Below, one piece after another: positions 30,335 through 34,213 of a stretch of 64,000 nucleotides of DNA (the first letter of the stretch is position 1; every line of letters starts with the position of its first letter). The notes below the pieces were generated by a model. The model was not told the origin of the DNA and ran no database searches. It worked only from the letters and a program-made list of their open reading frames with translations. A program made the position numbers and the translations under genes. The DNA is from Thermococcus cleftensis (lineage in GTDB: Archaea; Methanobacteriota_B; Thermococci; Thermococcales; Thermococcaceae): the NCBI RefSeq assembly GCF_000265525.1, contig NC_018015.1, positions 1 to 64,000 on the forward strand, given 5' to 3'.

Positions 30335-31087
30335 TCACCCCAGCTTTTCGAGGATTTCGAGGGCCGCTTTCCTCCCGCTGAGGAACATTCCGCCGAATAT
30401 CGGGCCCATTCTCGGGGCACCGGCTATCGCGTTAGCGGCCATTCCAGTGACGTAGAGACCGGGGAAGATTTCCCCCGTGTGCTTGACCGTGAGCTCCTCG
30501 CCCCTCTCGGCCCACATCGGGCCCTCTCCAGGAACCTTGAGCAGGCCCCTCTTAACGAGGTGCTGGCTTATCTGCGCCCCGTGACCGGTTGAGTCGATTA
30601 CAAACTTCGCCCCGACGGTGAGCGGGTCCACGTGGAGGCCCGTCATGAGAACCGGCGTCCAGTTGATTACTATCCCGGCCACGCGGTTCTCCTTCAGAAC
30701 CAGATCCTCGACCTCTATCATGTTGAAGAACCTCACGCCGGCCTTTACAGCCTTGCTCGCTATCGTCGTTGCCGTCTCGATGGCATCGGCAACGTAGAGG
30801 CCGTTCCTGAAGGGCCTGTAAGTTATCCCGAACTCGTCGAGGATTTCTCTGGCTTCCTCCTGGACGACTATCCTGTTGAAGCCCATCGCGCCGCCCCAGA
30901 TTCCGCCGCCGATGGAGAGCTTCTTCTCGAAGATTGCCACCTTTGCACCGCCTTTGGCGAGGTAGTAGCCGGCGACCATTCCTGAAGGACCCGCGCCCAC
31001 AATAGCGACGTCGAGGCTCAGGCTTTCGAGAAGCTCGGCCGTGTAGGCCTCGATTATCGCCCTGCTTATCTCCATCTCCCTCATCAT
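30335..31087 (-). CDS. thi4: archaeal thiazole synthase (Thi4 family)
   Basis: A 250-residue FAD/NAD-fold protein: GAGPSGM at 31-37, FEKKLSIGGGIWGGAMGFN, and a C-terminal GMAANAIAGAPRMGPIFGGM. The residue that in yeast THI4 is the self-sacrificing Cys is His152 here (TGLHVDPLT). This is the pattern of catalytic archaeal enzymes that take free sulfide, so the product is probably adenylated thiazole made from NAD, glycine and sulfide. Operon with thiDN (four-base gap). ATG 31087 follows GGGTGG. Confidence 0.92.
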   Translation of the reverse strand: MMREMEISRAIIEAYTAELLESLSLDVAIVGAGPSGMVAGYYLAKGGAKVAIFEKKLSIGGGIWGGAMGFNRIVVQEEAREILDEFGITYRPFRNGLYVADAIETATTIASKAVKAGVRFFNMIEVEDLVLKENRVAGIVINWTPVLMTGLHVDPLTVGAKFVIDSTGHGAQISQHLVKRGLLKVPGEGPMWAERGEELTVKHTGEIFPGLYVTGMAANAIAGAPRMGPIFGGMFLSGRKAALEILEKLG

Positions 31088-31098
31088 AGCCACCACCC

Positions 31099-31171
31099 AA
31101 AACCTTTTAAGCCGCGGTAAAAACTGAGTTTTGAAATTTAAAAACTTTGTTATAAAGGGGTTTTAAAACCG
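31099..31171 (+). repeat. 73-bp direct repeat, left copy (thi4 promoter)
   Basis: It matches 32850-32922 at 71 of 73 positions in the same orientation. It contains AAGCCGCGGT, a near-palindromic core AGTTTTGAAATTTAAAAACT (31127-31146) and the palindrome GGTTTTAAAACC. Read leftward, the core supplies a TATA box for thi4. Beyond its right end, CGGGTGGTGA echoes the thiC ribosome site, as if a thiC start had once followed. Confidence 0.9.
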
Positions 31172-31201
31172 CGGGAAACACGGGTGGTGAAAAAAGAGGA
31201 A

Positions 31202-32788
31202 TCAACGTTCGTGATCCGAAGAGACGTTTTCTGGGCAGTAACCTGTACGGGGGTCGCAGGGAGGGTTGTAGCCAGAATTTCCAGGAATGAAAATGTCTCC
31301 GAACATTCCGGTCAGGGGATACCTTTCACCCTTGTACTCAAACAGCACTTTGCTCGCGTATATCGTTGCTTTCACCGGTGTATCTAGATACTCCTCAGCG
31401 TCCTTTATGGAGACATCAACAGTGACGAGAGATGACTCCTCTAATTCTTTGGTTATTCCAACCGCGATTGCGAGGGTAAATGGTGAGACTTTCACATCGC
31501 CCTTTCCGATGACACCGAGCACGGGTGCCGAGGCGGAAAACAATGGTAGGGTGCTGACTTCTTGCCTAACCGTGAACGTGGAAATGCTGAGACCACCGTG
31601 ACCACTATTTTCTATCGCTTCTCTCCAGTACCGGTGAACGAACCACATTGTCCTGCTCATCGGCCCACCCTCCCTGTCGGGCCAGCCGGGTTCGACGTAT
31701 CTCCTCAGTCTCATGTCCTTTTCGTCGGGCTTTCCGAGGACAACGTACGCATAAGTGTCAAGTGGACGGTAGTGCTCGGCCCTTCCGTTTATGTAGTCGA
31801 CTCTATACAGTTGGTACTTGCCGAACGTAACGCTACCTTTAATTCCTGCCCCAATGACGGTGGGGGATACAAGCTCGTGTCCCCATATCCTCACCTCTGA
31901 CTTTGGAATCCTGAGCGAGTTTTTGTTTATCGTGTACGAGTAACCGAGTATCCTTCCCTCAATAGAACCGCCGGTGTTTTCGGTTTCAACCGCCCCAACT
32001 GCCGAGAACGCTAGCTCGGCCCGGTTTGTCGTTACCGCACTGTAATCTAGGGAGATGACAATGTCGTTTATTTTGCCCGTGTCCCCGGTTACCTGGAATG
32101 CCGCCACGGGAATGATGCTCGCCCTTCCGAGGGTTTTTTCGGGAAGCCACTCGAAGCAGTACCTGGAGCGGTCACTGCCTACCCAGAACTCCGGTGAACA
32201 CTGCGGTTTTCCAATCTCCGGCAGCGGTGTGTTAGGTTCTATCCCCGCTGAGGCCCCAGCTTCTCCCGGCTCTTTTAGGAGCTCTTTGACTCTGTCTTTC
32301 CCGTAGAGCCTCCCCATGACGTCCTCATCGATGTCAATCCTGACCCACAGGTTCTCAAGCAGGTTCTCGACGTCTATCGGGACTGTCGTCATGAAGTAGT
32401 CCAGGTTGCCCTCCTCGTCCTGAACGGTTCCGAGGAGAAGGAGGGACGGCTTCACGCTGTCGGGGCTGAGGTTGTTGGCGACCAGATAGCGGTTCCAATC
32501 GCGCATGACGCCGAGTATCGCCCTGTACTCTATCTGGATTTTGCCCCTTCCGGAGTAGGTGCCCAGGTACTTCAGAGAGCCGTTGGGCATGAGGGCCGAG
32601 ACGGAGACCGATGCGTAATCGTCCGTTGGGAGTTTGACCTCGAAAGACGGCTCGAAGATAAAGCTCCTGTAGTAGTCCACCTGTGCACCATAGTACTCGA
32701 CGGACTCCACTGGAATCTGAGAGGCGGCAAAGACCGCCCCTAATACTATGGTTAGTATTAGGAGAAGGACTGCCAACACTCTTCTCAT
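31202..32788 (-). CDS. secreted protein of unknown function, within a repeat-flanked insertion
   Basis: A 528-residue protein with an N-terminal signal peptide (VLAVLLLILTIVLGAVFAAS, residues 4-23) and no later membrane helix. The rest looks beta-rich: VSVSALMPNGSLKYLGTYSG, SLDYSAVTTNRAELAFSAVGAVE. Paired cysteines occur in PQCSPEFW...RYCFEW and in PPCDPRTGYCPEN near the end, which may form disulfides. ATG 32788 follows GAGGTGACC. Its 1.6 kb lies between two 73-bp direct repeats, separating thi4 from thiC. Family not recognised; possibly an envelope or virus-derived surface protein. Confidence 0.75.
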   Translation of the reverse strand: MRRVLAVLLLILTIVLGAVFAASQIPVESVEYYGAQVDYYRSFIFEPSFEVKLPTDDYASVSVSALMPNGSLKYLGTYSGRGKIQIEYRAILGVMRDWNRYLVANNLSPDSVKPSLLLLGTVQDEEGNLDYFMTTVPIDVENLLENLWVRIDIDEDVMGRLYGKDRVKELLKEPGEAGASAGIEPNTPLPEIGKPQCSPEFWVGSDRSRYCFEWLPEKTLGRASIIPVAAFQVTGDTGKINDIVISLDYSAVTTNRAELAFSAVGAVETENTGGSIEGRILGYSYTINKNSLRIPKSEVRIWGHELVSPTVIGAGIKGSVTFGKYQLYRVDYINGRAEHYRPLDTYAYVVLGKPDEKDMRLRRYVEPGWPDREGGPMSRTMWFVHRYWREAIENSGHGGLSISTFTVRQEVSTLPLFSASAPVLGVIGKGDVKVSPFTLAIAVGITKELEESSLVTVDVSIKDAEEYLDTPVKATIYASKVLFEYKGERYPLTGMFGDIFIPGNSGYNPPCDPRTGYCPENVSSDHER

Positions 32789-32849
32789 TTGGTCACCTCG
32801 ATAGTTTGTTTTATTTACAACTTCAAAAAGTTTTCGATCGAGCACTCCA

Positions 32850-32922
32850 AAAACCTTTTAAGCCGCGGTAAAAACTAAGTTTTGAAATTTAAAAACTTTG
32901 TTATAAAAGGGTTTTAAAACCG
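32850..32922 (+). repeat. 73-bp direct repeat, right copy (thiC promoter)
   Basis: It differs from 31099-31171 only at two G/A positions. The core AGTTTTGAAATTTAAAAACT is at 32878-32897 and, read rightward, places a TATA box about 40 bases before the thiC ATG. Its left flank CACTCC resembles a worn version of the thi4 ribosome-site region CCACCC beside the other copy. Confidence 0.9.
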
Positions 32923-32932
32923 GGTGATGGGA

Positions 32933-34213
32933 ATGACCCAGCTTGAGGAGGCCAAACGCGGGGTAATCACGGAGGAGATGAAGTTCATCGCCGAGAGGGA
33001 GGGGATAAGCCCCGAAAAGCTCAGGAGGAGCGTGGCGAAAGGACACACCGTCATCTTCCGCAACGTCCGCCACGACTGGGTAAGGCCGGTCGCGGTTGGC
33101 AATGTCGTTCGCGTCAAGGTGAACGCCAACATAGGCACCTCCCGCGACATCGTCGATGTCAGGGCCGAGATAGAGAAGGCCAAGGTGGCCGTCAAGTACG
33201 GCGCCGACACGATAATGGACCTCTCCACCGGCGGTGACCTCGACTCCATAAGGAAGGCCATAATGCACGCCGTCGATGTGCCAATAGGGACGGTTCCAAT
33301 CTACCAGGCCGCCGAGGAGATGCTCGCTAAAGGAAAGGCGATCATTGAGATGAGCGAGGACGACATGTGGAGGGCCGTTGAGAGGCACTTCCGGGACGGC
33401 GTTGACTACACGACGATACACGTTGGAGTAACCAAGGAAGTCGTCGAGAAGATGAAGAGGACGAAGAGGATCGTCGGCATGGTCTCGCGCGGCGGGACTT
33501 TTCTGGCGGCGTGGATACTCCACTGGGGCGAGGAGAACCCGTTTTACAGGGACTACAACTACCTCCTAGAGCTCGCTAGGGAGTACGACGTCGTTCTCAG
33601 CCTCGGCGACGGGCTTAGACCGGGTGGACTTCCCGATGCCGGCGACGAGCTTCAGATGGCGGAACTCTACACCCTCGGGAGGCTCGTTAAAAAAGCCAGG
33701 GAAGCCGGCGTTCAGACAATGGTCGAGGGGCCGGGCCACGTGCCCATAGACCAGATACCGGCGCAGGTGAAGCTCGCGAAAGTTGCCACGGACAACGCGC
33801 CCTTCTACGTCCTGGGTCCAATAGTTACCGACATCTTCCCGGGCTACGACCACATTACCGCGGCCATAGGAGGGGCGATAGCCGCTCTAAACGGGGCTGA
33901 CTTCCTCTGCTACGTAACGCCCGCTGAGCACCTCGGACTTCCGACGGTCGAGCACGTTCGCGAGGGGGTCATAGCTGCCAGAATAGCGGCCCACGCCGTA
34001 AACCTGACCCGCTTTGAGGCGGATTTTAGAAAGGACTACCTCATGAGCGTCGCGAGGGGAAGGCTCGACTGGGCGAAGCAGTTCGAGCTGAGCGGGGACA
34101 GGGAGATGTTCGTCGAGATAAGGAAGGAAAGGCCGACTAAAACAGAGGCCTGCTCGATGTGCGGCGACCTCTGCGCGATAAAGCTTATCCAAGAGATGCT
34201 CCGGAAGGGGTGA
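32933..34213 (+). CDS. thiC: phosphomethylpyrimidine synthase ThiC
   Basis: A 426-residue radical SAM enzyme that rearranges AIR, a purine intermediate, into HMP-P for thiamine. Landmarks: VNANIGTSRD, DLSTGGDLDSIR, VSRGGTFLAAWIL, SLGDGLRPGGL, VEGPGHVPIDQIP, and the C-terminal FeS motif CSMCGDLC. ATG 32933 has GGTGA five bases upstream; ATG 32927 is an alternative. Four bases separate its stop from purC, so HMP and purine synthesis from the same precursor are co-transcribed. Confidence 0.95.
   Translation: MTQLEEAKRGVITEEMKFIAEREGISPEKLRRSVAKGHTVIFRNVRHDWVRPVAVGNVVRVKVNANIGTSRDIVDVRAEIEKAKVAVKYGADTIMDLSTGGDLDSIRKAIMHAVDVPIGTVPIYQAAEEMLAKGKAIIEMSEDDMWRAVERHFRDGVDYTTIHVGVTKEVVEKMKRTKRIVGMVSRGGTFLAAWILHWGEENPFYRDYNYLLELAREYDVVLSLGDGLRPGGLPDAGDELQMAELYTLGRLVKKAREAGVQTMVEGPGHVPIDQIPAQVKLAKVATDNAPFYVLGPIVTDIFPGYDHITAAIGGAIAALNGADFLCYVTPAEHLGLPTVEHVREGVIAARIAAHAVNLTRFEADFRKDYLMSVARGRLDWAKQFELSGDREMFVEIRKERPTKTEACSMCGDLCAIKLIQEMLRKG

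Follow-up and report, generated by a model that had tools for sequence, protein, structure and literature searches.

The divergently oriented genes thi4 and thiC of Thermococcus cleftensis are separated by a single gene predicted to encode a secreted protein, which we have named spp, and a near-identical copy of the thi4/thiC promoter lies on either side of this gene. The reading we favour, with a probability of about 0.7, is that the interval holds a one-gene accessory cassette that would have entered once, with duplication of the promoter, that was later exchanged by homologous recombination, and whose gene would be regulated by thiamine. The locus lies in a window of 64,000 nucleotides, the whole stretch of DNA that was analysed, from a genome designated G000 below. 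The window covers bases 1–64,000 of its contig. The locus has the following features, where L and R denote the left and right promoter copies.

30335 to 31096, minus strand: thi4, sulfide-dependent ADP-thiazole synthase (TIGR00292, 301 bits)
31099 to 31171: L copy; its leftward arm serves thi4, its rightward arm now runs antisense into the 3' end of spp
31103 to 31111, minus strand: TATA-like box CTTAAAAGG of thi4, L copy (from the sequence; kept in relatives)
31120 to 31132: palindrome AAAACTGAGTTTT, L copy, candidate thiamine-regulator operator
31137 to 31145, plus strand: TATA-like box TTTAAAAAC, L copy, in the arm that formerly served thiC (from the sequence and relatives)
31202 to 32788, minus strand: spp, 528 amino acids, N-terminal signal-like hydrophobic segment, no known family
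32791 to 32799, minus strand: ribosome-binding site GAGGTGACC of spp (from the sequence; homologous leader in relatives)
32850 to 32922: R copy; its rightward arm serves thiC, its leftward arm, once that of thi4, now points toward spp
32854 to 32862, minus strand: TATA-like box CTTAAAAGG, R copy, presumed promoter of spp (conserved in every R copy)
32871 to 32883: palindrome AAAACTAAGTTTT, R copy
32888 to 32896, plus strand: TATA-like box TTTAAAAAC of thiC, R copy (from the sequence and relatives)
32936 to 34213, plus strand: thiC, phosphomethylpyrimidine synthase (NF009895, 618 bits; TIGR00190)

The curated models listed confirmed the identities of thi4 and thiC. An earlier note on this DNA had described a 73-bp same-orientation repeat, and this was borne out: 31099–31171 and 32850–32922 differ at two positions and are the only two copies of the thi4/thiC promoter found in a search of the 1,950,313-base single-contig genome. 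With an E-value of 1.4e-29 for the second copy, the repeat is far beyond chance, and a repeat search extended it to 31096–31176 and 32847–32927, with 94% identity over 81 nt. What had been taken for a near-palindromic TATA core is instead a perfect 13-base palindrome, AAAACTNAGTTTT, located at 31120–31132 and 32871–32883 between two separate TATA-like boxes. The unsplit interval of relatives has the same order, with a TATA-like CTTAAAAGG toward thi4, the palindrome CAAAACTNAGTTTTG, and a TATA-like TTTAAAAAC toward thiC. Worn traces of the gene starts had also been proposed beside each copy; that of thiC beside L is credible, because genome G054 retains AAAACCGGGTGATTGAAG, nearly the thiC leader, next to its left copy, while that of thi4 beside R is too weak to uphold. 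In the L copy, the arm that used to serve thiC is conserved as well, with no visible gene left to drive, so conservation of an arm alone is no proof of function; its upkeep may reflect either an antisense transcript or gene conversion.

We examined 94 Thermococcaceae genomes, 48 of which have divergent thi4 and thiC genes. The site is empty in 37 of the 48, with a single promoter copy in a gap of 71–90 bp, and in 10 it is filled by spp in the same place and orientation, with a promoter copy on both sides in every case (10/10). The remaining genome, G043, has two copies ~820 bp apart, and the insert between them has been remodelled and carries another small secreted ORF instead of spp. In the closest empty site, that of G039, the flanks are ~84–100% identical to the window per 100 bases, and the single copy corresponds to the left side of L joined to the right side of R. 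These 37 unsplit relatives, G039 among them, support the earlier proposal that one shared promoter was split and duplicated. Neither of the two findings that the earlier note had named as refuting it was seen: no relative carries spp between thi4 and thiC without both promoter copies, and strong matches to the repeat element in the relatives searched fell at thi4-thiC only, with none at unrelated loci. The homologue search that had been suggested for the protein recovered spp in ten species; this sharing of the cassette, the horizontal movement of the gene, the different cargo of G043 and the placement of spp behind the old thi4 arm had been missed.

Individual genomes depart from this pattern. 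In G058 (L220, contig C138, 5073–5477), a decayed thiC fragment with stop codons adjoins a decayed spp fragment, both having been lost together in a lineage that lacks an intact thiC. In G060, thi4 is on a separate contig (L218, C65; L219, C71), where a second spp 3' end, 98% identical, lies beside it; the sequence break falls at the repeat, and the second 3' end comes either from a variant strain or from a tandem array that includes a third copy of the promoter.

The gene trees and flank comparisons demonstrate, at the level of sequence, that spp has moved horizontally between species. The presence of spp requires eight state changes on the rpoB tree, and the two genes group the genomes differently: rpoB joins G022 with G016 and G064 with G054, whereas spp joins G022 with G064. 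In AU tests, rpoB rejects G022+G064 (p 6e-55) and G016+G069 (p 8e-39), and spp in turn rejects G054+G064 (p 1e-72) and G016+G022 (p 0.001). At the DNA level, spp is 99.2% identical in G070/G071, 95.5% in G022/G064 and 89.6% in G016/G069, while the flanking thi4 and thiC genes of these three pairs are 75–90% identical; in G070/G071 the dS of spp is 0.008 versus 0.474 for the adjacent thiC. Thus spp is discordant with both the core gene and its own flanks, the pattern looked for if cassettes are exchanged by homologous recombination.

The ends of the exchanged tracts can be placed in these pairs. In G016/G069, identity climbs from 64–82% to 94–100% at the L copy and drops again inside spp, and the alleles are therefore mosaic; for this one pair, the alignment places an exchange junction at the left copy. 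For two of the three pairs, the right-hand end of the tract lies within the insert or leader, not the R copy. The breakpoints of G022/G064 are inside the insert, including on the left side, and in G070/G071 a breakpoint in identity falls near the R copy. Inspection by eye found the variant GGCYCRCTAAAAAC of the repeat in four R copies, in one L copy and in 0 of 40 single copies, a distribution to be expected where the insert carries some of the R copy along when it moves. In G016 (L112, L023), thiC groups with that of other species (G038, G040 and G028) but thi4 falls elsewhere; the thi region as a whole therefore recombines between species, and the repeats are not the sole arms. In Pyrococcus furiosus COM1, homology down to 40 bp recombines (PMC5099854), and the Thermococcus integrase IntpTN3 catalyses recombination whose outcome is that of homologous recombination, with segments of 104 bp sufficing (PMC5495485). 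It is therefore plausible that the promoter copies serve as arms alongside thi4 and thiC. Unlike the IntpTN3 system, the cassette has no integrase, and its ~73-bp repeats are under the length reported for that enzyme.

The composition of spp was also compared with that of thiC. GC3 is 47–64% in spp and 71–79% in thiC, spp being AT-richer at third positions in every genome with both measured. The gene is mostly under purifying selection (omega 0.12–0.34); the omega of 0.92 for G070/G071 rests on very few changes, and one of the two alleles has a stop codon. This allele, at the thi locus of G070 (L098), has an in-frame TAG at 99.2% DNA identity to the intact G071 gene and is a very recent pseudogene.

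An alternative history, which we consider improbable, is that the ancestor of the genus already had spp between two promoters and that recombination between the repeats deleted the cassette repeatedly, with little horizontal gain. Direct repeats do offer a clean route to deletion, the empty sites resemble the left side of L joined to the right side of R with one copy, and the adjacent decayed fragments of thiC and spp in G058 would fit such losses. As no recognisable scar was found at the empty sites, loss of the cassette is inseparable there from its never having been present. However, the history of spp disagrees strongly with that of rpoB, and pairs of genomes share a near-identical spp where their thi4 and thiC sequences differ; transfer is therefore required at any rate of loss, and as a complete account this history is already contradicted by the gene comparisons. 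Under the single-entry reading, loss by recombination between the repeats would still be likely as one part of the traffic at this site.

It is much less probable that the insert is a mobile element with a long target-site duplication or an integrase att site, for which the promoter was the target. Integrases of archaea are known to leave duplicated att sequences tens of bases long, and the target sequence does flank the insert as a direct repeat, as it would around IS elements and MITEs. Against this, ORF, repeat and Pfam checks of the insert revealed neither a transposase or integrase nor terminal inverted repeats, in agreement with the earlier note, which had seen no transposase; spp is its sole full-length gene and has no Pfam match. 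No homologue of spp was found in plasmid and viral collections, and close homologues, all ten of them, are at the thi4-thiC locus. Unlike IS elements and MITEs, the insert is restricted to a single locus and has a repeat that is far too long; at 73 bp, a target duplication would greatly exceed the sizes known for archaeal IS elements. Searches of Pfam, NCBIfam, PADLOC, PHROGs and the PDB returned nothing useful for spp, and an AlphaFold2 model from a two-sequence alignment had a pLDDT of 36.5 and a pTM of 0.30.

The spp proteins of the thi locus form one clade with 100/100 support, apart from family members elsewhere that include two paralogues in G000, and one founding insertion is therefore likeliest. 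Where the spp inserts meet the R copy, their edge sequences (AAAAAGTTTTCGATTGAGCGCYCCAAAAACC and variants) are homologous to one another. The G043 insert (L107) shares its left edge with the spp inserts, the 3' end of the gene included (0/200 shuffles reach its score), and in the position and orientation of spp it carries an orphan 184-aa secreted ORF, for which no homologue was found in the family and which profile comparison indicated to be unrelated to spp. At the right edge of this insert, resemblance is limited to the final bases ahead of the repeat; farther in, similarity is not above that of shuffles. A single origin is thus well supported, and one founding insertion that was later remodelled in G043 is the simplest account; a circle with the gene and a promoter copy on it, integrating by a single crossover, would produce exactly this layout. 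That related genes inserted repeatedly and independently into the same promoter, duplicating it anew each time, is very unlikely: the second ORF between two copies in G043 and a within-genome L/R identity slightly above that of shuffled pairs (P 0.009) point that way, but gene conversion accounts for the latter, the junctions are homologous across spp inserts, the G043 insert retains the 3' end of spp, and the proteins are a single clade. The two G000 paralogues, at C1:1778520-1780070 and C1:1261926-1263431, are ~45% and ~33% identical, respectively, and their loci have no long flanking direct repeats and no flanking promoter copies.

On the single-entry reading, a member of a Thermococcaceae secreted-protein family would have entered the divergent thi4/thiC promoter once, and duplication of the promoter on entry would have left both thi genes with an intact copy. 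Since then, homologous recombination would have brought the cassette into further genomes and probably also removed it, the homology arms being the promoter copies and the thi genes on either side.

The position of spp suggests how it may be regulated. Exact matches to AAAACTNAGTTTT in this genome are confined to the two promoter copies, and a one-mismatch site at ~646,914 (L234) lies directly before the gene for a two-domain ABC permease that is ThiP-like but below ThiP cut-offs. There the palindrome falls between a TATA-like box and the permease start codon, where a repressor would be expected to block transcription. Across 61 genomes of the genus, CAAAACYNRGTTTTG is found almost only at thi4-thiC or before the ThiP-like permease gene, with a few sites unplaced; G000, G021, G043 and G044 have it upstream of the permease gene, and a reversed control pattern gave matches in two genomes. 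A riboswitch search at the locus found no riboswitch and one sub-threshold match. The genome also encodes a 298-aa HTH_3+ThiN protein of ThiR architecture (ThiN 146 bits, HTH_3 24 bits), and ThiR is named as the regulator of the thiamine genes of P. furiosus (PMC10746257). Because the palindrome is shared with the permease gene, a ThiR-like protein is encoded and ThiR is so named in P. furiosus, the palindrome is probably a thiamine operator, and ThiR probably binds it. The leftward arm of the R copy, which serves thi4 in empty genomes, now faces spp, with this gene located downstream of it, and from the anatomy and conservation of the site we infer that spp is probably regulated by thiamine. 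The leftward arm of R would then drive spp, and the palindromic operator, probably bound by ThiR, would place it in the thiamine regulon.

Comparison with known systems brings out what would be particular to this site. Locus-specific exchange of accessory genes by flanking homologous recombination is a property of bacterial surface antigen and capsule loci, and the thi4-thiC site resembles these in its interspecies swapping of alleles at one locus, mosaic genes, conserved arms and empty sites; it differs in that its arms include duplicates of a promoter on which both neighbouring genes, and probably the cargo as well, depend. An archaeal ThiR regulon with an HTH-ThiN regulator was reportedly described by Rodionov et al. 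in 2017 (cited in PMC10746257). The HTH_3+ThiN protein, and the palindrome shared by thi4/thiC and the ThiP-like transporter gene, are like this regulon, a likeness in regulator architecture and in the sharing of a palindrome; a gene for a secreted protein controlled through the palindrome would be an addition to it. More tentatively, the duplicated divergent promoter may itself be the working part of an exchange site that traps genes: a gene arriving between the copies would gain thiamine control, the thi neighbours would keep their promoters, and the cargo, be it an allele of spp or the secreted G043 ORF that is unrelated to it, could be swapped or cleanly removed via the copies. We regard this extension as possible but hold it well below the single-entry reading.

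The locus would thus represent an archaeal case in which an accessory secreted-protein gene joins a regulon by lying between two copies of a native divergent promoter, leaving its neighbours undisrupted. With empty and filled sites across many relatives, some of them tractable, both the regulation and the exchange are directly testable. The spp family is fast-evolving and horizontally exchanged, and an apparent link with control by vitamin B1 offers a first hint of what it does.
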